52,854 nt of DNA from Lactobacillus sp. MRS-253-APC-2B (GTDB lineage: Bacteria; Bacillota; Bacilli; Lactobacillales; Lactobacillaceae): assembly GCF_012843675.1 (NCBI RefSeq), contig NZ_JABAFO010000011.1:1-52854 (forward strand), given 5' to 3'. This document shows, in pieces, positions 7,343 through 47,551 of this stretch; positions within the stretch are counted from its first letter, which is position 1; each line of letters opens with the position of its first letter. Under the pieces are notes generated by a model. That model was given only the letters and a program-made list of their open reading frames with translations. It was not told the DNA's origin and did no database searches. The position numbers were made by a program, and so were the translations under genes.

Positions 7343-7560
7343 TATCCGAAGACTTAAATACAAACGTTTTTCTTATTGCCGTTATCGCCGGTATTCCGAT
7401 ATTCCAACGAGGGAGTAATCACATTGACCAACGCAGATGCCGAAACATCACTCTTGCAACATCTAAGGAAGGCTCTCGCCAATCCTCGGGTACAGCTAAC
7501 CCGTGTGGCCTCGATTGCTCAAGGCCATTAACAATCCTTTCTTTTAAGTTTATAGTGCCT
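7343..7560 (-). ncRNA. Probable omega RNA (TnpB guide RNA) at the right end of the IS607-type element
   Basis: Directly downstream of tnpB on the same strand lies a gene-free, structured stretch. The first helix is GGCCTTGA-GCAA-TCGAGGCC (8 bp, GNRA-type loop). It is followed by CGGGT/ACCCG with a 7-base loop and GGC-GAGA-GCC. This is the location and style of the omega RNAs that TnpB uses as guide scaffolds, overlapping the 3' end of tnpB and the element's right end. Both ends are approximate; the scaffold should end exactly at the element border, with the guide read from flanking DNA. A T-box or other riboswitch is less likely given the position. Confidence 0.6.
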
Positions 7561-8833
7561 TATTCAATTTTGGATGCTCAATCAGTGCTAAAAGATTAAA
7601 CATCGCATTGGTGTCCCGATCTACAACTAAGTTGTAGTTGGGACATTTTTTGTTATAGCAAACAAACTCATTATGTTTGGTGCCATGCTTCTTGTTGCCA
7701 TACAGCGTAATGCGTTCATCACCATGCTTAATGGTGCCGCAGACTGCACAACGCTGAGTAGATGGATATAGTTTGTCGGCTAAAATCAATTTGCGACCAT
7801 ACCATTTACACTTGTAAGTCAGCATTTGCTTAAACCTGCCAAACATGGAACGATGCACGCCCTTAGAAGCTACATGGCTCATTAGCATGCCTTTGACAGA
7901 CAGGTTTTCAATTACGATTTGATCATAATTATTAACCAACTTAGTCGTAAATTTGTGCATGAGGTCATTCTGGATATTAGATGCTTTGCGATAGCATGCT
8001 TGAAGCTTGGTTCTCGTCTTCAAATAGTTATTGCTTTGCGTACTGCCAGTAACAACCCGTTTATGTGCTAATTTACGTTGATAATGTTTAATTTTTTCGT
8101 AAATGCGTTCCAACTTCTTTGGAAGAACGTTTTGTTGACCATCCGTATAGTTGAAATGACCGACATTAACATCAACTGCCGTATTCTTACCAGTTTTGGG
8201 TAATGCTTTTTTATTGGCGACTTTAAACGGTACAGCTGCATAGTAACGGCCGTTTTCACGGAAATAGCTGACTACACCGATTTTGTCGGACAAAGGTTTC
8301 TCACTTAATTTAAAGTCCCGCCATTCTTCACTTGGAACGAGGCTTTTCTGAGGACGTTCCAGACGCAGTAAACCGTCTACAATCTTGCTTTGATCGCTTT
8401 TAAAGCCCTGGCGTGGTTCTCGACGGGAATGAAAATGCGGCTTTCCCCAATCGGGCTGTGCCTTGTCAAAAAAATTCTGCCAAGCATTGCCCAAGTCCTT
8501 AACGGCAAGGCCAAGCAGGTGGGCAGAGCGCTGATATTGCCAATCTGCTTTGTCGTGTACCATAATGTCACGAACCATCTTCCAATTTGGAGAAGGATTT
8601 AGATGAATGTCGATAGGTTTTACCGTGATTTTTCCCGTTTTTTTATTTTGTTTGGGAATAAATTTAGTCCATAAAATTTTGTCGTAAATCTTATGAGCAA
8701 GATACAACTCATTCCATGTTTCTAAGGCTTGGTTCCAACAATAACGACGATAATCAATAGCCTCATCCAAAACCAGCTTCATAGTCTTATTCGGATGCAG
8801 TTCGTAAACCACCGTTTGGATTGTATCAGTCAT
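7550..8833 (-). CDS. tnpB: RNA-guided endonuclease TnpB
   Basis: A 427-residue TnpB of the Cas12 ancestor family, normally an omega-RNA-guided DNA nuclease that helps retain the element. The split RuvC active site is complete: Asp221 in AVDVNVGH, Glu309 in IVIENLSVKGM and Asp405 in VVDRDTNAMFN. A zinc finger lies between them (CAVCG near 365 and CYNKKC near 395). The N-terminal REC/WED part includes YRRYCWNQALETWNELY. The ATG at 8833 is preferred over a GTG at 8842, since GGCGGTGG precedes it. The start overlaps the tnpA stop by 8 bases, indicating coupling. The length is near the upper family norm, with no truncation. Confidence 0.93.
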   Translation of the reverse strand: MTDTIQTVVYELHPNKTMKLVLDEAIDYRRYCWNQALETWNELYLAHKIYDKILWTKFIPKQNKKTGKITVKPIDIHLNPSPNWKMVRDIMVHDKADWQYQRSAHLLGLAVKDLGNAWQNFFDKAQPDWGKPHFHSRREPRQGFKSDQSKIVDGLLRLERPQKSLVPSEEWRDFKLSEKPLSDKIGVVSYFRENGRYYAAVPFKVANKKALPKTGKNTAVDVNVGHFNYTDGQQNVLPKKLERIYEKIKHYQRKLAHKRVVTGSTQSNNYLKTRTKLQACYRKASNIQNDLMHKFTTKLVNNYDQIVIENLSVKGMLMSHVASKGVHRSMFGRFKQMLTYKCKWYGRKLILADKLYPSTQRCAVCGTIKHGDERITLYGNKKHGTKHNEFVCYNKKCPNYNLVVDRDTNAMFNLLALIEHPKLNKAL

Positions 8834-9443
8834 TCTTACCACCGCCTTTCAAGCTGGGATCCGTCTCAATCTGTTTTTTATAACGGCGTAGGCCGTATAA
8901 GCGACTGGAAAACACATGGATAATACTGGTCAGATCGTCAACCAATTCCTTATCGGGGCTAGTTTTAGGATTATTAACCACGATGATTTCTGCACCATGA
9001 CGCTTACAAAAGTCAGCGAACCAATCAAAGCCAAAGCGGATAAAGCGATCCTTATAAGTCACATAAATTTTGCCAATTTTGCGATCTTCAACTTCTTGTA
9101 ACAGCTTATTCCACTTAGGTCGTTTGTAATTGAGTCCACTGCCAATATCTGTAATATGCTCATCAATAATAATGCCCTTAGCATTACAATATTGAATCAA
9201 GAAATCCATCTGATCCTCTAGATCACGTTTTTGTCCAGCTGATGATACTCGAGCATAAGCAATGTTTTTACGGTCTTTTTCACTGATCCCTAGATACTTA
9301 TTCAATTGTTCTTGAGTGTAGTAACGCCGATTGGCAGCATTTCGATAAGCCTTGATGCGCCCCTCTCGATCCCAACGCTGCATTGTTGAAACTGAAACAC
9401 CAAGCAGTTCAGCAGCTTGGCTAACCTTATAGATTTTGTTCAA
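8826..9443 (-). CDS. tnpA: IS607-family serine recombinase TnpA
   Basis: A 205-residue transposase. Residues 1-52 are a MerR-like helix-turn-helix (VSQAAELLGVSVSTMQRWDR). Residues 60-190 are a serine resolvase catalytic domain, with the nucleophile Ser67 in IAYARVSSAGQK and downstream RFGFDWFADFCKRHG. This domain order, HTH first, is diagnostic of IS607. The start codon is TTG at 9443 with AGGTGA 8 bases upstream; no ATG fits. A TATAAT box and an 8-bp inverted repeat lie just upstream, so the protein may regulate itself. The gene overlaps tnpB. Confidence 0.93.
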   Translation of the reverse strand: MNKIYKVSQAAELLGVSVSTMQRWDREGRIKAYRNAANRRYYTQEQLNKYLGISEKDRKNIAYARVSSAGQKRDLEDQMDFLIQYCNAKGIIIDEHITDIGSGLNYKRPKWNKLLQEVEDRKIGKIYVTYKDRFIRFGFDWFADFCKRHGAEIIVVNNPKTSPDKELVDDLTSIIHVFSSRLYGLRRYKKQIETDPSLKGGGKND

Positions 9444-23847: not shown

Positions 23848-23869
23848 CAAACTGAAAGGAGTGGTTTTA

Positions 23870-25348
23870 ATGAATCTACTGACGTTGCCGGCCTACCGCT
23901 TAGCAGAAATGATTCGCCAACACCAGCTTACCAGTCGTGAACTGGTTGAAATGGCACTAGCTAAGATTCAAGCAGAAAATCCCACCCTTAATGCCGTTAT
24001 TCACTTAAGAACAGAGGCAGCCTTAAAAAAAGCCGACCAGCTGGCAGATCATGGCCAGCCGTTTTTAGGCGTTCCCCTGCTGCTAAAAGGACTTGGCCAA
24101 CGAATGAAGGGCGAACCCGACACTAATGGCAGCCGGCTATTTCGCCATCAGCTGGCTAATGAAACCGACAATTTTGTCAAAGCGCTCCAAAATGCCGGCT
24201 TCATCATTATTGGTCAGACAAACTTTCCTGAATTTGGCTATAAGAACATTACTGATGCCAAACTTTTTGGTCCAGCTCGCAATCCTTGGAATCCGCAGTT
24301 CACGACCGGTGGCTCATCAGGCGGTGCCGGCGCGGCCGTGGCAGCTGGCTGGGTACCAGTCGCCGCGGGCAATGATGGTGGCGGCTCAATCAGAATTCCG
24401 GCTAGCTGGTGTGGCGTTATTGGTTTAAAACCAACGCGCGGCCGCATGCCGGTTGGACCAGGCAGTTGGCGTTCCTGGCAAGGAGCATCAATCAATTTTG
24501 CGTTGACGCGTTCGGTTAAAGATACCGCGCTATTATTGGATACTTTGCAGACTGTACAAAGCAGTGCCGTCTTTCAAACACCCTTAAGCAAGCTGTTTAA
24601 ACCTGGCACGATGGAATTGTTGCCAACCCCACGGCTGAGAATCGGCTGGACCACAGTCTCCCCTGTTGATACGACAGTCGACGAAGATGCAACTCGGGCG
24701 GTTTTGGATGCCGTTGACTTCTTGCAGCAAATGGGCTTTGATTGTCAGCCATATGAAGATCCAATTGATGGCCGCAGTTTGATCGACAGCTATTATCTAA
24801 TGAATGAAGGCGAAACGGCCGCCATGTTTGCTCAGATCGAACACTCATTAAAACGTCCGATTGGTCCGGATGAGATTGAACTGGTTACCTGGGCACTGTG
24901 GCAAACCGGCAAAAACATCTCAGCCGCTGAATATATCGCAGCCTTAAATGTTTGGGATAAAGCTGCAGCGTTGCATGATCAGCTTCATCAAAAGTTTGAC
25001 GTGCTATTGACACCCACAACCGCTACCCGTCCATATCGTATCAATGAGCCGCAGCATACTGCCGACTTTGACGAGCAGCTTAGACATATCGATCAGCTGG
25101 CACCAAAAGAACAGCAGCAGCTGATTTATGATCAATGGCTTGATTCGCTGAGTAAAACGCCATTTACCCAAGCAGCCAATCTGACTGGCGAACCAGCGAT
25201 TTCTTTGCCAACCCACATTAGAAAAGATGGCTTGCCCCAAGGTATTCAATTGATTGCCAATAAAGGGCGTGAACTGGATTTATTGCAGTTGGCTGCATTG
25301 TTTGAAGAACATAATCAATTTAAGATGCTGCATCCGACAATTGAATAA
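23870..25348 (+). CDS. Amidase signature-family protein
   Basis: A 492-residue amidase. The Ser-cisSer-Lys triad is visible: Lys in VPLLLKGLGQ, the cis-Ser in FTTGGSSGGAGAAVAAGW, and the nucleophile Ser in NDGGGSIRIPASWCGVIGLK. It hydrolyses an amide bond of unknown substrate; it is not GatA, since no gatB or gatC is present and the family details differ. The start is the ATG at 23870 with AAAGGAG 9 bases upstream; a GTG at 23861 overlaps the ribosome site. It follows mleR closely. A bidirectional terminator separates it from the structured RNA on the opposite strand. Confidence 0.9.
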   Translation: MNLLTLPAYRLAEMIRQHQLTSRELVEMALAKIQAENPTLNAVIHLRTEAALKKADQLADHGQPFLGVPLLLKGLGQRMKGEPDTNGSRLFRHQLANETDNFVKALQNAGFIIIGQTNFPEFGYKNITDAKLFGPARNPWNPQFTTGGSSGGAGAAVAAGWVPVAAGNDGGGSIRIPASWCGVIGLKPTRGRMPVGPGSWRSWQGASINFALTRSVKDTALLLDTLQTVQSSAVFQTPLSKLFKPGTMELLPTPRLRIGWTTVSPVDTTVDEDATRAVLDAVDFLQQMGFDCQPYEDPIDGRSLIDSYYLMNEGETAAMFAQIEHSLKRPIGPDEIELVTWALWQTGKNISAAEYIAALNVWDKAAALHDQLHQKFDVLLTPTTATRPYRINEPQHTADFDEQLRHIDQLAPKEQQQLIYDQWLDSLSKTPFTQAANLTGEPAISLPTHIRKDGLPQGIQLIANKGRELDLLQLAALFEEHNQFKMLHPTIE

Positions 25349-25351
25349 AAT

Positions 25352-25394
25352 AAAGAGCCCATGAAACGCATCAAGCATCCCATGGGCTCTTTTT
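25352..25394. terminator. Bidirectional terminator shared by the amidase gene and the large RNA
   Basis: AAAGAGCCCATG / CATGGGCTCTTTTT with a 17-base loop. On the minus strand it follows the tRNA-like 3' end of the candidate RNA and ends in TTTATTTT. Confidence 0.88.
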
Positions 25395-25396
25395 GA

Positions 25397-25968
25397 CTAT
25401 GCCAGTAGTGGGACTCGAACCCATATTGACACCACTCAAACTAATTGATTCATTCAATTGATGAGTCGCCCTGGCATAACAGCCTGTGCATTGGTTTGCG
25501 TAGCTTAGCTTTGATAGTTGATTAGGCAACGTGCTCGACAAGGCTTAGCCATGACCCGTCGATCATAACCTCTTGTCGCTTTAACATGGCACGGGCTGGG
25601 ATCAGTACCCACCATCTTTTGGTCAGCATAAGCATTTTTCTATTGATTGTGTAATAGTAAAAGTCGCCTTGACCTACTCGAACCGGCCTCAATGCTTATA
25701 GCCACATCACTGCGGCATCACGGCGAACGTTTTTGGTGACGTTCCACTTTGGTTCTCAGGTTGTCGAGCCTGATTGACTGTGGATGGGATATTGCAAACG
25801 CGCATCGGGTCGTGCCTTAACTTATCAAAACCGCACTTGACTGACCAGGAACACGGCTTTTTCTCACCGCGATCAAGACTCACCACAAGCCTTAATGCTG
25901 GAAATCAGACAGCTATCGTTGCCTAACGTCCTAGTTCATGGATAAGTCAGTCAGCTGGGCGACTCTGT
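25397..25968 (-). ncRNA. Candidate large structured RNA (ROOL/GOLLD-like) with tRNA-like 3' end
   Basis: This 570-base stretch has no protein gene but dense complementarity on the minus strand. The two ends pair: 25957-25965 with 25463-25471 (GGGCGACTC and its complement, 9 bp). Nested inside are 25917-25926 with 25522-25531 (10 bp), 25887-25893 with 25540-25546 (7 bp) and 25691-25699 with 25628-25636 (9 bp). Local hairpins lie at 25725-25744, 25756-25773 and 25597-25611. The 3' end (25399-25477) is tRNA-like: a 7-bp acceptor-type stem and a canonical T-arm GGGTTCGAGTCCC, but no cloverleaf D and anticodon arms. A promoter-like site and a terminator bracket it. Size and layout resemble ROOL (about 580 nt) more than GOLLD; I cannot align it to either. 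It is not a tmRNA, because the acceptor halves are not at opposite ends. Confidence 0.7.
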
Positions 25969-25972
25969 CAAA

Positions 25973-26000
25973 GTCTTATTCACCTTTTAGTTAATGTCAA
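25973..26000 (-). promoter_or_regulatory. Promoter-like site for the large RNA
   Basis: On the minus strand TTGACA (26000-25995) is followed after 16 bases by TAAGAC (25978-25973), placing the transcript start close to 25966, right at the 5' closing helix. It begins immediately after a terminator, so the RNA would be an independent transcript. Confidence 0.55.
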
Positions 26001-26001
26001 T

Positions 26002-26031
26002 AAAAAATCACCTGTCACAATGACAGATGAT
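26002..26031 (-). terminator. Terminator after the small orphan gene
   Basis: On the minus strand ATCATCTGTCA / TGACAGGTGATTTTTT with a 3-base loop. It isolates the small gene at 26056 from the RNA promoter. Confidence 0.85.
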
Positions 26032-26055: not shown

Positions 26056-26274
26056 CTAAAAGTCAAACTGCAGCTTTTCCAACTTGCTCCAAGCGACATT
26101 TTTAGTTTCTTCAGTTGGTACGGCTTGACCGTCAACTGAAACGTTTGCTCGCCGCAGCAGTACTTTGCCATCATTCAAAACCTTTTGAATCAGATAGGCT
26201 TGTGCACAGCGCCAATCGTTGATGCGAACCAGTACCGCATCGTTCATGGCCATTACGACTTCCTTCTTTGTCAT
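26056..26274 (-). CDS. Small hypothetical protein
   Basis: A 72-residue protein that I do not recognise. It is soluble-looking and mixed in charge, with DAVLVRINDWRCAQAYLIQK and VLLRRANVSVDGQAVPTEET. The ATG at 26274 has GAGAGAGGAATTG upstream; an upstream in-frame start at 26304 has no ribosome site. A perfect terminator follows. It sits directly upstream of the large RNA, on the same strand, and may belong to the same accessory module, though no function follows from that. Confidence 0.65.
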   Translation of the reverse strand: MTKKEVVMAMNDAVLVRINDWRCAQAYLIQKVLNDGKVLLRRANVSVDGQAVPTEETKNVAWSKLEKLQFDF

Positions 26275-26304
26275 GATATCAATTCCTCTCTCTCTGATGA
26301 TCAA

Positions 26305-38226: not shown

Positions 38227-40076
<1,850 letters not shown>

Positions 40077-40080
40077 TCAG

Positions 40081-40722
40081 CTAGTTGATAGGAATGACGG
40101 TTAGCATTCCCATACCATAAGCTTTTTCACGCCCCAGACCATAAATTAGCGTGTTTTGAAGTGCAATAGGATCAGTGACTTCCAATATTCCTTCAAAAGC
40201 AACCCTGCTAAGCCTTATTGGACGATTTCCCTTATGATAAAGTGGTACAAAATCACGTTCCTTAATCTCAAAACTATTTTCAGAGAGCCTAAATCCAGCA
40301 CGCTCCGATCTTTTAATTAACCACTCTTTCTGCTGGTCAATTGTAATATGTGGAAACGTCCGTTCACGTTCACCATTCTTCCCAGCTCCCATCCGTAATA
40401 CTGGATTAGCTACTAATCGAAAACGTAACCGTTGTCCATTTCTTATACTGTTAATAAATGGTAAGTACTCTTTAGTAGCTGCCGTGTTAGCAACACCATA
40501 CCGTGATAATATTGTTAAATCTGGTTTATCCTCGCTCACAACGAGTAGGTATTTTCGATTGGCTAACGTATCGATACGCCATAAATGTCTTTTTCTGACA
40601 CCTTTTTGAATTTCGTCTGGAAAACTTTGCTCTATCCAATTATGGTATGCGCCTAGATTAGTTAAGTCTTTAATTTTTCGACGATTTTTGGTATCGATTT
40701 CTACTCTTGATAAATATACCAT
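40081..40722 (-). CDS. cas6e: Cas6e/CasE pre-crRNA endoribonuclease
   Basis: A 213-residue Cascade subunit that cuts pre-crRNA in the repeat hairpin and stays bound to the 3' handle. The catalytic His is probably in the LGAYHNWIEQSFPDEIQKGV segment, and the C-terminal Gly-rich loop is GLGREKAYGMGMLTVIP, the RAMP hallmark. The start is the ATG at 40722 (MVYLSRVEIDTKNRRKIKD), the normal I-E start; a longer frame to 40755 overlaps the cas5e end but has no ribosome site. The repeat hairpin in the nearby array has the stem it expects. Confidence 0.93.
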   Translation of the reverse strand: MVYLSRVEIDTKNRRKIKDLTNLGAYHNWIEQSFPDEIQKGVRKRHLWRIDTLANRKYLLVVSEDKPDLTILSRYGVANTAATKEYLPFINSIRNGQRLRFRLVANPVLRMGAGKNGERERTFPHITIDQQKEWLIKRSERAGFRLSENSFEIKERDFVPLYHKGNRPIRLSRVAFEGILEVTDPIALQNTLIYGLGREKAYGMGMLTVIPIN

Positions 40723-40739
40723 CGCAATCTTTCTCCAAT

Positions 40740-41447
40740 CTAAATCGATGCCCATATATCATGATCGGTATTTTTTCGTTGGACGTAATTACTGTTTTCT
40801 AAAAAAACATTATCTTCGGCAACTGACCGATACTCATAATATCGACTTTTTTGATTAAATGAGCCAACACCATCTTTAATTAAGTGATTAGGTTTGTCTG
40901 GAACTAATTTTGCATCAGCATAGATACGTGCATTAAAAGCATCTTTTTTGTACTTTCTTTGAAACCATACCGATGCTTGCCATGGCAACTCTTTTAAGAC
41001 GTTTATAGCAGTTTTATCTGGACACATTTTTATTTTTAAAATACCAGCAGGCGGGTTGGATCGCCTCCCAAAATAGAGTTGAAATTTTGGATGCCGTAAT
41101 GCATACTCAATTTCTTCCATCAAAGCGTCTTGCTTGCTACTAAGTGCAACCATAAAAACCGCATCCTGCAAATATATTCGATGAGAAAGTTTTCCTGGTT
41201 TCTTTAAACTATAGTGGGTAATTTGAAAATCACTTAACACTTCGCCAGGTTGATCAACACGAACGGCAAAATCTAAATCGTTTAAACATTTGTAATCATC
41301 ACTTTCCCTGCGAAAACCGAGGGCGGCACCAATCATCCCTATAATTGCGCTTTTACTTGGAGCTCGAAAAGTAGTTCTTTTTTCAAAAGATGCCGGATCT
41401 CCATACGACTGCAAAGGCGCAGCTAGTCTAATTACTAATGTTTTCAT
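40740..41447 (-). CDS. cas5e: Cas5e/CasD Cascade subunit
   Basis: A 235-residue RAMP protein that caps the crRNA 5' handle in Cascade. The N-terminal KTLVIRLAAPLQSYGDPASF and the SKSAIIGMIGAALGFRRE thumb region are diagnostic of Cas5e. The start overlaps the cas7e stop by 20 bases, so translation is coupled. It lies between cas7e and cas6e in standard I-E order. Confidence 0.95.
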   Translation of the reverse strand: MKTLVIRLAAPLQSYGDPASFEKRTTFRAPSKSAIIGMIGAALGFRRESDDYKCLNDLDFAVRVDQPGEVLSDFQITHYSLKKPGKLSHRIYLQDAVFMVALSSKQDALMEEIEYALRHPKFQLYFGRRSNPPAGILKIKMCPDKTAINVLKELPWQASVWFQRKYKKDAFNARIYADAKLVPDKPNHLIKDGVGSFNQKSRYYEYRSVAEDNVFLENSNYVQRKNTDHDIWASI

Positions 41448-42510
41448 CGTTCATCATCCGTTCTAAACATTCTGCAACGTTGGTAAGTAGTGATGAGATG
41501 TCTTTAACTTGATTATCAATTCTAGATTCTTTAGTGGACAAAACAATCGTTGTCTCTGGTTCTTCAACAAAGCTCTGAGTTACATCATACTCATTTTCAA
41601 GTTTTTCAATTGACTTTTTAATGTAACCACTATTTGAACGAACTGGTTCTTCAAAGGCTGAAACTAAGTTAACCGGCGTATCGTTTCGAATTGTTACCAT
41701 TACATATGGAGGAATTGTTTTATTTGCAAAGCTATTTTGTTTACCAGTTGGCATTGACAAAACAAATTCCTTGATAAATAGCTCAATTCCTTTCAGCGTT
41801 AATTCCGCAGAACCTAGATTGTGAAAGAGTTCTTTAACATTAACGTTAGCGTATCGATACAGCGTTGAGGAATTAAATTCCAATGTATCAATCATAGCAG
41901 CTCCTGCACTATCTTGTTCGTCATCCAAGGCAGTAAAATAGTCAAATTCGGGCACGATCTCGTGAGTTGAAATCGCATGAGCAACTTGCGAAGCTGCATC
42001 TACGTTTAATTCAGGATTATCAGCAACCATCCGACCAAAAAGTGCTAAATCAAGTGAATTTTTGTCACTAAACACTTCTTTAAGCTCTTTTTTATCATAA
42101 GCATCATTTTGTAAAGCATAGTCCGCTAATTTATCAATCTGACCATCACTAAGCAAAAACAGTGCACCAGTAGTATTCTCATCTTTTTTTATTTTGATGC
42201 CGGCTGCTTTGAAAACCTCAATTGCTTTTTTAGTTGCGGCATCTAAATCTAGGGTATTATCCTTTTCGGCAAGCTTTTCAGCCAAAAGCTGAACACCTTT
42301 TTTCGTCCGATGACTCAACAGCCATTCCGCACCATCGCTATCTTTCTTGAAAGCTTCTCGCATTGCATGTTTCCAACTCTGCGACGATACTCTTGCTCGC
42401 GTAACTCCGCCATAAAGAGCCGTCTTAGGAGCACCTGAATCATCGCGATTGATATTTGAAGCTGGAACCGTTTGTAATACATGAATATCTAAGTATAAAT
42501 TTTTAGTCAT
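41428..42510 (-). CDS. cas7e: Cas7e/CasC Cascade backbone subunit
   Basis: A 360-residue backbone protein; six copies bind the spacer part of crRNA. The N-terminus YLDIHVLQTVPASNINRDDS and GGVTRARVSSQSWKHAMREA are the canonical Cas7e motifs, followed later by FNSSTLYRYANVNVKEL. AAGGAAGGAAAAAAC gives a strong ribosome site. The length is normal. It follows casB by 26 bases. Confidence 0.96.
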   Translation of the reverse strand: MTKNLYLDIHVLQTVPASNINRDDSGAPKTALYGGVTRARVSSQSWKHAMREAFKKDSDGAEWLLSHRTKKGVQLLAEKLAEKDNTLDLDAATKKAIEVFKAAGIKIKKDENTTGALFLLSDGQIDKLADYALQNDAYDKKELKEVFSDKNSLDLALFGRMVADNPELNVDAASQVAHAISTHEIVPEFDYFTALDDEQDSAGAAMIDTLEFNSSTLYRYANVNVKELFHNLGSAELTLKGIELFIKEFVLSMPTGKQNSFANKTIPPYVMVTIRNDTPVNLVSAFEEPVRSNSGYIKKSIEKLENEYDVTQSFVEEPETTIVLSTKESRIDNQVKDISSLLTNVAECLERMMNDENISN

Positions 42511-42536
42511 GTTTTTTTCCTTCCTTATCTTTTGTA

Positions 42537-43130
42537 TTAATTAGTTGAAACTGATTGCCAATAATACTGGCGTCCCCATTTTAAGAAAACCTGTCTTGAG
42601 TACTCATAACCCATTTGAAAGAAAAATAGATCTTGCGCCAGCTGCGAAAAATCTAATAATAAATTTCTATCGGCAGATTTTAAAATTCTAACCAGCTGAG
42701 TAACACTCTTGGCAACACTATCAATATTAGTTGAAGATAAAAGATTTTGTATCCGCCGATCAAGAGCTGCCTGCTTGTCTTGATTTTTCCTTAGATCAGC
42801 CAAAGCGACAAACAGTTGCTGCCCTTTATCCTCAGCATTTACTTGATTAGAACTTGCGTAACTCAGTTGGGTAAGGCCTTGCTGATAAATAGCAAAGCAC
42901 CTAAGCGCAGTGTAGATAGCTGTTTCTTGTCGTGTTTCTCTGCCTTGTGGATCGCTGCTGATATCACTTGCTGCCATTTTTGAAAACATAATCGGCCAAA
43001 CATTTTCTGCACGACGATCTTTAATTGTTACGGCATGCCGCAAACTTGCCAAAACCGCCTTATCCAAATCGCCGTTATTATAAAGACTATATATTATCTG
43101 CGCAGTTACCTTTGCGATTTCATTTGCCAT
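42537..43130 (-). CDS. casB: Cse2/CasB Cascade small subunit
   Basis: A 197-residue all-helical subunit that dimerises on the Cascade belly and helps hold the non-target strand. The visible core is AVLASLRHAVTIKDRRAENV, WPIMFSKM and a C-terminal DFSQLAQDLFFFQMGYEYSR. The length matches Cse2. It begins 7 bases after the casA stop, within the same transcript. Confidence 0.92.
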   Translation of the reverse strand: MANEIAKVTAQIIYSLYNNGDLDKAVLASLRHAVTIKDRRAENVWPIMFSKMAASDISSDPQGRETRQETAIYTALRCFAIYQQGLTQLSYASSNQVNAEDKGQQLFVALADLRKNQDKQAALDRRIQNLLSSTNIDSVAKSVTQLVRILKSADRNLLLDFSQLAQDLFFFQMGYEYSRQVFLKWGRQYYWQSVSTN

Positions 43131-43137
43131 ATACTCA

Positions 43138-44835
43138 CTACCTCAATTTCTTTCGATACTTATTGATGCTTGCGCGGAGGATATTAACAAGGATAAAAAT
43201 ATTTTTAATCGATTCGTCATCCTTGCCCTTGTGATCACCAATGATTTCTTTGGGCGATGCTGTTGCCATAACTGACTTGACTTGTTCGTCAACCTGTTTA
43301 AGTAAAATCTTATCTTCCCATCGCAAAATTTGGGGAGTCGTCGGTTGCATCGGATCCAAATCTATCAGCCAATCAGCAAATGGTTCATTTAGGTGATTAT
43401 AAAAGTCTTCACTTAATCTGTTTGCAAAATCTTTTTTATTGCCAATGCCTCGTAATTCAGCCAACCCATTGGCAAATCCCCAATAGTACTTAATAATTTG
43501 TTGAGTATATTCAATAGCATCTTCAATCTTAGTTGTCCAATGCAAATCAAATAAAATATCGGCATTGATATAAAGATCATCGCTAATTTCTGCTGCCGGC
43601 ATTTGAGAAGTAGCATTTCCATCACTGATTAGGTTTGCCGTTGCCAAATTCACATAATGGGTATCCGGAATCAGCTGTTCATCTTTTAATAAACTCAACC
43701 AGTTGACTATTCCCGGCTTCATATCGGCATTTTGAGTATCAGCTTCAGTAGGAACATATAACCCAAAATTTCGCCACATTTTCTTACCCAGATCACTTAA
43801 ATGCTTAGTATTATGATGACGATCCTTCACACGCCAAGTAGTCATAGGTTCAATTTCATTATTGATTGTGTCATCATCAAATTTTGGCAGACAAGTTGAA
43901 AAGACAGTCGGCTCCTCATCCCATTGTACATAAATCATACGCGACCAGTTGGTATACAAGCCTGCAATATTGTCAGGGGCCTTTTTTTCTAGTAAATATT
44001 TAACATAGTCTGCTTGACTTGCAAATTCCCAATTAGGTTTTTGAATAATACTTCCATATTCTCCAGAAAAATCAGACATCAAGACAAGATTAAGCATTAA
44101 GGTTTCAAAAAGTGTTTTTCCTTGAGCATAAACGGTATCTAAACCATATAGCCAACCAGCTGATGCTGAATACTTCTCAACATCTTTAATTTTCGTCTTG
44201 TCAGTAGTTCCCGTGAAATTCTGATAGCTAATCAGCCACCTGACAAACTCTGCAGTTCCAATTTTGTTTTTTTGCGAACTAGATTTTGGCGAAAAAATAT
44301 CCGGTGAATTATTACTTTCCGAAATTAATCGATTCATCTGTTTAATTGCAACAGTACCTTTCCCCGATGCAATTTTTTTACTGGTGAGATCATCATAAAC
44401 CTCAGCCGTTACTTGATAAAACGGCTGCTCACCAAACACATCAAAACGTGCTGCATACTTTTCCAAATACTTTACAACGATATCTGAAAAACGTCCTTGT
44501 TGAAAAAGGTCTTCCCACGTTGCTAATAAATCTTCTTGGATATCATCATTATCATCTTCTAATGAATTATCAATTGGGCGCCAGCTTTGCGAATCGAGTT
44601 CTAGCCATTCATACGGATTATCATTCGCATCAAACCTTGTATAAACCGTTGTTAAGATTGCTAATAGAAAACGTAAAATTGCCAAATCCTGCGACCGCAT
44701 CTCGCCTGCTAACCGACGATAATTTTGTGCATTTTGAAAGAGATCCTCTAAAGAAATCTGTTTTTCTTCATCAGAATCAAGTCCAATTACCTTTATCCAA
44801 GGACTGGTCAGCAGATTAAAACTTTCTTCAGCCAT
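43138..44835 (-). CDS. casA: Cse1/CasA (Cas8e) large Cascade subunit
   Basis: A 565-residue Cas8e that recognises the PAM and recruits Cas3. FNLLTSPWIKVIGLDSDEEK is the family start, and RFDVFGEQPFYQV and the late four-helix bundle are present. The start is the ATG at 44835 (MAEESFNLL), since GGAGGAGAAGC lies just before it; the frame to 44856 covers that site. Its first 8 bases overlap the cas3 stop. The exact PAM cannot be inferred. Confidence 0.93.
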   Translation of the reverse strand: MAEESFNLLTSPWIKVIGLDSDEEKQISLEDLFQNAQNYRRLAGEMRSQDLAILRFLLAILTTVYTRFDANDNPYEWLELDSQSWRPIDNSLEDDNDDIQEDLLATWEDLFQQGRFSDIVVKYLEKYAARFDVFGEQPFYQVTAEVYDDLTSKKIASGKGTVAIKQMNRLISESNNSPDIFSPKSSSQKNKIGTAEFVRWLISYQNFTGTTDKTKIKDVEKYSASAGWLYGLDTVYAQGKTLFETLMLNLVLMSDFSGEYGSIIQKPNWEFASQADYVKYLLEKKAPDNIAGLYTNWSRMIYVQWDEEPTVFSTCLPKFDDDTINNEIEPMTTWRVKDRHHNTKHLSDLGKKMWRNFGLYVPTEADTQNADMKPGIVNWLSLLKDEQLIPDTHYVNLATANLISDGNATSQMPAAEISDDLYINADILFDLHWTTKIEDAIEYTQQIIKYYWGFANGLAELRGIGNKKDFANRLSEDFYNHLNEPFADWLIDLDPMQPTTPQILRWEDKILLKQVDEQVKSVMATASPKEIIGDHKGKDDESIKNIFILVNILRASINKYRKKLR

Positions 44836-47551
44836 GCTTCTCCTCCAATCTTTCATAGCATAAACCCTTATCAGATGAATAGCTTAACCTAAAGTCAAAA
44901 AAATCAGTCGTTTGTTTTGATCCTAAAATCAAGGCCAAAGAATCGTGCAGCCAAATACTCTGCTGCCATTGCGGCAAGTTTTCAGATGTAGTATCTTCAA
45001 GCTTTTTAATGATCTCATCTAGTTTCCACTCTGGAGTAATAACACCCGGCAAGCGGATAACTTGATCAGAGATAGTCTTATCATCAACTTCGGTCAATTT
45101 TCTTCCATCTAATAGGTAAAATTGATGATCAGTTTCTTTAAGTAAAATAACTTCTAAAGTCTCTTGAATATCACGAACCGCTGCCTGGGCTTTAATCTCG
45201 CCTTGCCTATCATCTGGGAGATCCCAATCAAGCCATTTATGAATTGTCCCTTTAAGCTTGGGCTTAGCAATTTGAAATACTTTTGCTTTATTCTCAGAAA
45301 TTTTTTGATCTTTATCAAATTTTGCCTTAGCTTCTATTAGGCCAGAAACTTCGCTGTCAGTCGCTGTGTCATAGACTTGCTGAACTAATTTGGAAATATC
45401 ACCCGGTAATGCTATTTTTTCTTTTAAAAAATGATCTGTTTTCATTAACAAATACTTTTCGTAGATGTACTCATTACTTTTTCCATAGTCGCCATAGTCA
45501 TTAATCCCTAAAATATATAATTGAGGGGTTTGTAAACCTTTAGGGCGCTTAATATTATGACGATGCAATCGACCAACCCTTTGCAAAATCAAATCCATTG
45601 GTGCGATATCAGTAAATAAAACGTCGAAATCGATGTCTAGCGATTGTTCTAAAACCTGCGTACCAATCACAACCAGTCTTGATGGCCGAGCAGCATTTTT
45701 CCCAATCATGCTTTGAAGCTTTTCTTCAATTTTTTGACGATATGGTGCCAAAAACGCAGAATGCAAGACAATCGTTAAAACGTCTTTTGGCATTAAGTCA
45801 GCAATTTCCTGTGCTCTTTTAACCGTATTAACAATAATTCCGGCTACGCCACCATCTTTTATCTTGGCATTTACGATATCAACCAGCTTATCATTTTCAA
45901 CATTGATTCTTTCAACTTGTACGCATTTAGATTTTTGTGATACAAAATTCGTTACTTGTTTTAGGCGTTTGCCATCTAACATACTTAGTAATGGGTATGC
46001 CTCATTGTTTTCCCAACCAGGCTCTGCTTCAAATTGGTCACTACCAAATTTACCTTTCGCATAACTTTTCAAAAGCTCATTTCTTTTTTCCTTTGGTAAA
46101 GTAGCAGAAAGGGCAATTACCGGAACATTGTATGCACCTAACCATTGCAGAACTTTTGCTAGATACGAAGACATGTAAACATCGTAGCCATGAACTTCAT
46201 CGATAACGACTACTTTTCCGCTCAATCCAAGGTGCTTTAAAAAAAGATGTCGTTGTTTCAATCCCATCTGCAGCAAATTGTCAATTGTTCCAACAGTAAA
46301 CTCCTCAAGAATTGATTTTTTGCCACTAAACCACTCATTGACAACCACTGCTCCCGAACCTTGTACATTTTCTGCCTTTGGTATTGCTTGGTTTCTTTGA
46401 TTAAACTTGGCTTTCCCATGCATCAACTTTATTGAAAGATTGGCATCTTGTTCCTTAGCTTCCTTCGCCAACCAATCTTCAACTCGATCAAACATTGCAT
46501 TAGACGTCGCTTGAGTTGGCAGCCCCATAAACAGGCCATTACAGCCACATCGACTAGCCAGCTGTTCAGCCACTGTTAAAGCAATTTCAGTTTTACCAAT
46601 TCCCATAGGCGCTTCAATAATCATCATGCCAGGATCAAGAGCCTTACTAATTTCCTGACACATTGCCAGCTGAACTTCACGTGGATGAAATCCCCAATGC
46701 TGAACGTAATATTCGTCAATATCAGAGACACACTCGGCACTCCACTCGTCAGTTATCTGCCATGTATTGATGGCATTTTGATAACGCTGTTCAGTATTAA
46801 CATCAGTAGCAGATTCATTAATGTCGATAAGTGGAAAAAGCGGTTTTGATGGATCATCATTCAAATACTCACTGGATGCCAACCAGTCAGCCATTATCAA
46901 TAGGCCCTCTAAAAGTACTGCTTGAATTTTATTGACCCGAGGAATTTCTGATGATGTATGAAACCCGCATAAATGTAGACCATATTGGAATAGATCCTCT
47001 TGAACCTTTCTCCATCGATTCTGTTCTTCTCCTGGTGTCTCTGGCCAATAGTTTTCTGAATTATGCTGTGTATCTTTTGCCACTGGATTGCTTAAAGGCT
47101 TACCATGATGACCACCTATTATGGCCGCAATAGATTTATTCACCCCATATGTTTCCAACAATGCTTCACCGGCCAAGGCATGGGGTGATGCACTGCGTTT
47201 CGAAAATGATAATTTATCGATGCCTTTGAACCCACCTCGAATCATTTTTTCCATAATGTCTTCATCAAGCGAGTCATTATGAACATATGACTGCTTAGTT
47301 TGAAATGCCGTCGTTGCCTTTCCGATATCATGGATATATCCCAGAAATTTAACTACATTTTGTGTTATCGTTTCTGAATTTTCAATCATTAGCAATGATC
47401 TTTGATTATCAGTCAGCCAATGATTGTACAGCCAATTAATAACATTTTTTGTATCAATTAAATGTATAACCAATGGCAACCAAAGTTCTTGATCATCGCG
47501 AATTGCTTTCTTTCCCCATAAAGAAAGTTCTTCTGTCGTTAGCTCTCCCAT
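44828..47551 (-). CDS. cas3: Cas3 helicase-nuclease
   Basis: A 907-residue effector nuclease. The HD nuclease comes first (His74-Asp75 in GYIHDIGKATTAF, and later IIGGHHGKPLS), then the SF2 helicase: Walker A APMGIGKTEIAL, motif II VVIDEVHGYD, motif III ALSATLPKE, and motif VI QRVGRLHRH. All look intact. It starts the operon at 47551 with AAAGGTGA upstream. Cas3 degrades target DNA after Cascade binding. The lengths and motif order are normal for type I-E. Confidence 0.96.
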   Translation of the reverse strand: MGELTTEELSLWGKKAIRDDQELWLPLVIHLIDTKNVINWLYNHWLTDNQRSLLMIENSETITQNVVKFLGYIHDIGKATTAFQTKQSYVHNDSLDEDIMEKMIRGGFKGIDKLSFSKRSASPHALAGEALLETYGVNKSIAAIIGGHHGKPLSNPVAKDTQHNSENYWPETPGEEQNRWRKVQEDLFQYGLHLCGFHTSSEIPRVNKIQAVLLEGLLIMADWLASSEYLNDDPSKPLFPLIDINESATDVNTEQRYQNAINTWQITDEWSAECVSDIDEYYVQHWGFHPREVQLAMCQEISKALDPGMMIIEAPMGIGKTEIALTVAEQLASRCGCNGLFMGLPTQATSNAMFDRVEDWLAKEAKEQDANLSIKLMHGKAKFNQRNQAIPKAENVQGSGAVVVNEWFSGKKSILEEFTVGTIDNLLQMGLKQRHLFLKHLGLSGKVVVIDEVHGYDVYMSSYLAKVLQWLGAYNVPVIALSATLPKEKRNELLKSYAKGKFGSDQFEAEPGWENNEAYPLLSMLDGKRLKQVTNFVSQKSKCVQVERINVENDKLVDIVNAKIKDGGVAGIIVNTVKRAQEIADLMPKDVLTIVLHSAFLAPYRQKIEEKLQSMIGKNAARPSRLVVIGTQVLEQSLDIDFDVLFTDIAPMDLILQRVGRLHRHNIKRPKGLQTPQLYILGINDYGDYGKSNEYIYEKYLLMKTDHFLKEKIALPGDISKLVQQVYDTATDSEVSGLIEAKAKFDKDQKISENKAKVFQIAKPKLKGTIHKWLDWDLPDDRQGEIKAQAAVRDIQETLEVILLKETDHQFYLLDGRKLTEVDDKTISDQVIRLPGVITPEWKLDEIIKKLEDTTSENLPQWQQSIWLHDSLALILGSKQTTDFFDFRLSYSSDKGLCYERLEEKHG

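Follow-up and report, generated by a model that had tools for sequence, protein, structure and literature searches.

The window analysed here (a stretch of 52,854 nt from Lactobacillus sp. MRS-253-APC-2B) contains a region that an initial annotation had described as gene-free and structured, and no ORF of at least 60 aa indeed lies within positions 25349 to 25979. Which RNA this region encodes, and how the ends of such an RNA would be formed, are the questions that this locus raises. ROOL RNAs are large multi-helix monomers that self-assemble into a hollow cage, and the initial annotation had wavered between a divergent member of this family and a new class, naming the ROOL and GOLLD models of Rfam as a check. 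A cmscan search against all of Rfam returned a full-length match to ROOL (RF03087) with 124.4 bits (E 2.8e-25) compared to a gathering score of 99.1 bits, and no match to GOLLD at the gathering threshold (Table 1). By its sequence, the stretch belongs to ROOL as a divergent member encoded on the minus strand, and a new class of giant RNA is excluded by the full-length RF03087 match above the gathering score. The strong terminator that had been noted is present and faces the minus strand, and the hairpin with a T run directly upstream of ROOL is the probable terminator of the neighboring 82-aa ORF.

Table 1. Features of the ROOL locus in window coordinates.
Feature	Position	Strand	Evidence or remark
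ROOL RNA, RF03087 model 1-574	25440..26008	-	cmscan match; only copy found in the genome
ROOL core	about 25480..25984	-	conservation vs sister genomes; 97/122 model pairs standard in both
Variable linker	25640..25668	-	17/24 aligned sites differ from G003
tRNA-like element	25398..25478	-	minimum-energy fold z -2.70; the G003 element scores 37.4 bits with the tRNA model
Intrinsic terminator of the ROOL unit	25352..25392	-	18-pair stem-loop, then T-rich tail
Hairpin and T run directly upstream of ROOL	26002..26030	-	10-bp stem, z -2.92; absent from the terminator-scan list
Orphan 82-aa ORF	26056..26304	-	likely start 26274 (72 aa)
Amidase-family gene, convergent neighbor	23861..25348	+	Pfam PF01425, E 6.3e-79

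The window's genome belongs to a gut bacterium, a Limosilactobacillus closely related to L. mucosae. Searches of the genus and family, run with stricter filters under which weak matches are lost, detected ROOL in 4 of 50 genus genomes (the window's own, L. mucosae DSM 13345 or G027, G003, and G049) and in 2 of 81 genomes of an even family draw, which includes the window's own genome and adds the L. salivarius-type locus L014. Three of the 50 genus genomes (the window's, G027, and G003) carry ROOL at the same chromosomal site between the 82-aa ORF and the amidase gene, and to date this chromosomal lineage has been encountered solely within the L. mucosae clade. The 82-aa ORF is found in exactly the same 3 of 50 genomes, and a scan of species genomes with two peptide patterns returned solely L. 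mucosae while missing G003, so that absence elsewhere is not implied. This ORF has no match in Pfam, PHROG, NCBIfam, or the phage and plasmid collections and no solved relative (best E 0.96), and its structure model is of low confidence (pLDDT 64, pTM 0.36). On the other side of ROOL, the amidase gene of G003 (L022) has an internal TGA and may be a pseudogene there.

None of the 28 window proteins scanned (8 with Pfam, 20 with NCBIfam) is named as a phage structural protein, terminase, or integrase. The earlier remark that no phage gene is in view thus holds for these 28 proteins, several of which have no family, with a TnpB gene being present; a prophage origin at this site was rejected because no phage gene is named among them. 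Since excerpts of two structural studies describe ROOLs in phages, prophages, and non-prophage regions as well as near tRNAs (PMC12191101, PMC12286853), a chromosomal ROOL is not new in kind. The fourth genome of the genus with ROOL, G049, has two copies on small contigs, one of which (L012) appears phage-like because it bears ten tRNA genes; in G049, ROOL is followed after 54 nt by a true tRNA-Arg and then by a terminator-like hairpin recognized by eye. Locus L014 in all probability represents the RNA already described from L. salivarius, as its ROOL is matched by 33 plasmid records that are all from Ligilactobacillus, the published sequence itself standing outside this comparison. The megaplasmid lncRNA of L. 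salivarius (PMC5643018) is a ROOL of similar size from a related genus. The L014 copy differs from the window locus in having a terminator-like hairpin close to its 3' end (by eye) and no tRNA, and in being followed by a small ORF (L014:10065-10337) whose NCBIfam matches (E 0.013 and 0.015) are repressor-like but weak.

By blastn, the window ROOL has no match in the phage and plasmid collections, and three phage or prophage ROOLs have none in the phage collection. The former result would suit a new giant RNA class unrelated to ROOL, but the full-length Rfam match over threshold and a closing helix P1 whose register is common to the ROOLs of G003, G049, and L. salivarius leave such a class with practically no probability.

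The ROOL core changes more slowly than silent sites when compared to G003. In its two parts, 42 of 316 (13.3%) and 19 of 160 (11.9%) sites differ, while fourfold-site divergence reaches 37.9% (11/29) in the 82-aa ORF, 46.5% in the amidase, 46.6% in the SDR, and 35.1% in the MgsA gene nearby, and 21.1% and 32.4% in the more distant LysR and malic enzyme genes. The variable linker stands out against these 12% to 13% of changed core sites (Table 1), and outside of it the core from 25984 on has a single gap position. Among 122 model pairs comparable in the direct alignment of window and G003, 102 are standard in the window and 97 in both sequences (81 unchanged, 13 with one-sided and 3 with two-sided changes), while 5 are broken only in G003, 3 only in the window, and 17 are standard in neither. 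With partners moved by 1 to 4 positions as a slide control, merely 32 to 48 of the 122 pairs are standard in both. The window/G003 pairing thus supports the ROOL core structure well, although three two-sided changes are a small number that one of the slide controls matched. Covariance-model alignments gave 14 two-sided changes where the direct alignment gives 3, and were set aside for covariation given that the registers of L001 and L004 differ.

Directly after the ROOL core, the minimum-energy fold forms an acceptor stem, a D arm, and a T arm. The acceptor stem has 8 bp (25478-25471 with 25405-25398), the D stem (25466-25463 with 25437-25434) encloses an extra hairpin inserted in the D loop, and the T arm (25424-25408) consists of a 4-bp stem and the 7-nt loop TTCGAGT, which fits the T-loop pattern TTCRANN. 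G027 adopts the same fold unconstrained (z -2.54) and G003 shows the same arms (z -2.83) despite differing at 35 of 67 aligned sites and at 17 gap positions, with the T-loop start TTCGA and most of the acceptor being kept. An anticodon arm is missing from the window and G027 folds, and G003 has at most a 3-bp stem-loop in its place. The G003 element exceeds the gathering score of the tRNA model (29 bits) with its anticodon arm collapsed, a match obtained when lax filters were applied to a query of 181 bases; it is absent from the tRNAs listed by more extensive scans of G003, and the window element reaches only 14.7 bits, to tRNA-Sec. ARAGORN calls no tRNA at either element. Standard pairing in both lineages is found for 13 of 16 element pairs, and 5 of these have changed on both sides. 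When the letters of the 3' part were re-dealt, five two-sided changes arose in 0.02% of 100,000 draws, a figure that applies to a structure drawn with both sequences in view and to an element of which only two distinct versions are known. We did not use a simple T-arm/acceptor scan as proof, which matches 115 of 3,200 shuffles and 661 of 9,600 random windows of the same loci. The tRNA-like 3' end proposed by the initial annotation is therefore real as a predicted fold, given its z score, the G003 tRNA match, and the two-sided pair changes.

The initial annotation had also proposed that the RNA is closed by a 9-bp helix (25957-25965 with 25463-25471). This match is perfect in the window, but about 0.6 complementary 9-mers are expected by chance in 570 nt (570 × 569/2 / 4^9, equal base frequencies), and as a closing helix it is not conserved: one base is changed in G027 with loss of the pair, and G003 lacks the helix. 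Moreover, it cannot be the closing helix because it shares bases with the acceptor and D stem of the tRNA-like element, where the G027 base that breaks it converts an acceptor G.U pair to A-U. We therefore rejected this helix as unconserved and incompatible with the element.

A tRNA-like sequence at a locus of this kind could also be the scar of an attachment site, left by the integration of an element into a tRNA gene, an event after which the 3' portion of the tRNA often stays behind. Yet a search of the window's genome that allowed up to 3 mismatches in 24 bases gave no second copy of the T arm and acceptor, no integrase is named among the 28 proteins scanned, and the D arm is kept while the species differ in sequence around a stable fold. 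We consider such a scar very unlikely, and the failure to find a second copy largely refutes it.

How the 3' ends of other ROOLs are arranged can be seen on viral contigs, where three sequence patterns yielded 27, then 5 new, and then 11 new loci, while one further pattern gave none. The following counts cover the first 32 of these loci and leave out the last 11. By cmscan, 25 of the 32 are ROOL, whereas L047, L049, L053, L055, L064, and L066 are not and L077 is a 3' fragment only. In 10 of the 25 phage ROOLs (8 of 20 clusters when grouped at 95% identity), a tRNA starts no more than 8 nt from the ROOL end, compared to a chance expectation of 0.34 for points drawn at random from the same strand up to 2.5 kb away (interval -8 to +10). 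The tRNAs were identified with ARAGORN or the tRNA model, the calls of the latter being used for L075 and L079 only, in count and control alike; L065 and L069 abut a tRNA by eye but are uncalled and so stay outside the 10. No tRNA directly 3' was called in the other 15 of 25 phage ROOLs, and the L. salivarius ROOL has none either. At the opposite end, 6 of 25 (L048, L052, L059, L061, L069, and L078) have an upstream tRNA whose last bases fall within the 5' edge of the ROOL match. Four of these loci (L048, L052, L061, and L078) form tight tRNA-ROOL-tRNA arrays in which the Rfam match overlaps the end of the upstream tRNA. The window locus resembles such arrays in that the ROOL end coincides with the start of a tRNA acceptor, as in the 10 phage cases, but the phage tRNAs have an anticodon whereas the window element has lost the anticodon arm.

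It is from the fold of the element together with this phage arrangement that we infer cutting by RNase P and RNase Z. Our favored reading, which we hold to be fairly probable, is that of a chromosomal minus-strand ROOL with a degenerate tRNA at its 3' end that is most likely cut by RNase P to set the ROOL end. The transcript would run from the ROOL body through a degenerate tRNA without anticodon arm to the terminator, with RNase P cutting at the 5' side of the element and RNase Z or exonucleases acting at its 3' side. A cut before the acceptor would place the 3' end of ROOL directly after the closing helix P1, as it would for the phage tRNAs, and an anticodon arm that is presumably dispensable for RNase P cutting could for this reason have been lost. 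The element is thus best read as a degenerate tRNA that would be kept as an RNase P/RNase Z signal freeing the 3' end of ROOL. A comparable case is MALAT1, a long noncoding RNA that acquires its 3' end through RNase P cleavage at a tRNA-like element (mascRNA), though it is mammalian and unrelated, and RNase P cutting is only a prediction for the window ROOL. If expressed, as our reading supposes, the window RNA may assemble into cages by analogy to ROOLs from L. salivarius (a hexamer), Enterococcus faecalis, and rumen sources for which cages are reported (PMC12191101, PMC12286853, PMC12515178); the L. salivarius ROOL solved as a hexamer has 526 nt (PMC12191101).

Instead of being cut off, the element could persist in the mature RNA and act as a functional 3' tail like that of tmRNA, serving stability, CCA addition, or the binding of a tRNA-binding protein. 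The retention of the TTCGA T-loop start, most of the acceptor, and the fold at such sequence divergence would be understandable for a tail, and an anticodon arm would be dispensable there too. We nevertheless regard an uncut tail as unlikely, for a helix of acceptor and T arm is the textbook minimal substrate of RNase P, the phage tRNAs at the same place need to be cut free to work, and no CCA is encoded after the acceptor in the window.

At its 5' end, the window copy has lost several features found in G003. In G003, both G049 copies, and L. salivarius, P1 forms in one shared register with -9.2 to -13.4 kcal/mol (-11.4 in G003), and for each of these four duplexes the native partner gives a stronger pairing than any of the five others does. 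The window and G027 have lost P1, with values of -3.2 and -3.3 kcal/mol that lie inside the range of mismatched species pairs (-1.4 to -9.1 kcal/mol). The first hairpin likewise drops from -15.0 kcal/mol in G003 to -6.4 in the window and -7.2 in G027, and the stretch that contains the best promoter match of G003 (TTGACA, 17, TATTCT) is missing from both. Promoter-like matches in this region number 2 where 3.6 are expected, and so do not exceed chance. The promoter-like site and the self-contained transcript of the initial annotation consequently find no support, as no convincing promoter is left in the window copy. Because of the losses in P1, first-hairpin strength, and promoter stretch, we consider the 5' end of this copy eroded, which is the strongest result against a working, self-contained gene in the window.

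With a 5' part that is eroded as it is in L. mucosae DSM 13345, the window copy may be decaying. It could then be the relic of a phage or plasmid ROOL and its tRNA that were left in an ancestral chromosome and have become functionless in the L. mucosae branch, an explanation that we rate as somewhat unlikely. Such decay would be in keeping with the absence from the window and G027 of what G003 has at its 5' end, and with the internal stop in the neighboring amidase of G003. Constraint after the 5' loss is, moreover, not demonstrable from comparing the window to G027, whose divergence is patchy along the locus and where 5 changes in 507 core positions including the linker are not separable from a low local background. 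A relic is harder to reconcile with the near absence of gaps in the core outside the linker, with pairing that is as intact in the window as in G003 (3 vs 5 pairs broken in one only), and with the retention of the tRNA-like fold and the terminator. The window copy shares with RF03087 a full-length covariance match, the order of helices, and the variable linker, along with P1 in its G003 counterpart, and differs in its location next to an orphan 82-aa gene at a chromosomal site outside prophages, its anticodon-less tRNA-like 3' end, and its eroded 5' end. The literature that we searched, with the 2017 founding ROOL paper and the structure paper of Ling et al. outside its scope and other sources present in part, does not describe an anticodon-less tRNA-like ROOL end.

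An anticodon-less tRNA at a chromosomal ROOL, together with phage ROOLs that abut or enclose tRNAs, offers a handle on how ROOL ends are formed and on whether the RNA-only ROOL cage concerns tRNAs at all, its role being called unknown in the structural literature consulted. We put forward, as a tentative and rather doubtful proposal, that ROOL cages are made and used with tRNAs: excision of ROOL from tRNA-ROOL-tRNA transcripts would be the work of tRNA-maturing enzymes, some phage ROOLs hold a tRNA in the loop turned toward the inside of the cage, and the tRNA next to ROOL would in the L. mucosae clade have become a dedicated non-decoding mimic in the sole service of the cage RNA. If true, ROOL would be an RNA compartment that handles or guards tRNAs. 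The G003 copy, with its promoter match, P1, and tRNA-like tail, offers a compact system for tests outside phages. GOLLD is similar as a large cage-forming RNA tied to tRNAs, with tRNAs stated to lie in a linker (PMC12286853), but it has another sequence and fold.

In solved ROOLs, the linker lies inside the cage (PMC12286853). Two phage ROOLs from separate 95% clusters have a tRNA inside the variable linker (L065:661-734 and L075:1954-2027), an arrangement that is not described for ROOL in the same partial literature, again apart from the two papers named above. By eye, the linkers of L079, L081, and L085 contain T-arm-bearing remnants, and the remnants of L081 and L085 have identical sequences. 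Another ROOL-bearing viral contig encodes a tmRNA (L072:5810-6083) among 12 tRNAs.

Elsewhere in the window, positions 38227 to 47551 hold Type I-E CRISPR genes, among which Cas3, Cas7, and Cas1 are named, and the ORF at 38227-39129 joins a Cas2e match to a DnaQ-like exonuclease domain. The TnpB-family gene occupies positions 7382 to 8842 and is followed just downstream by a match to the Transposase-1 RNA of Rfam with 54.5 bits.
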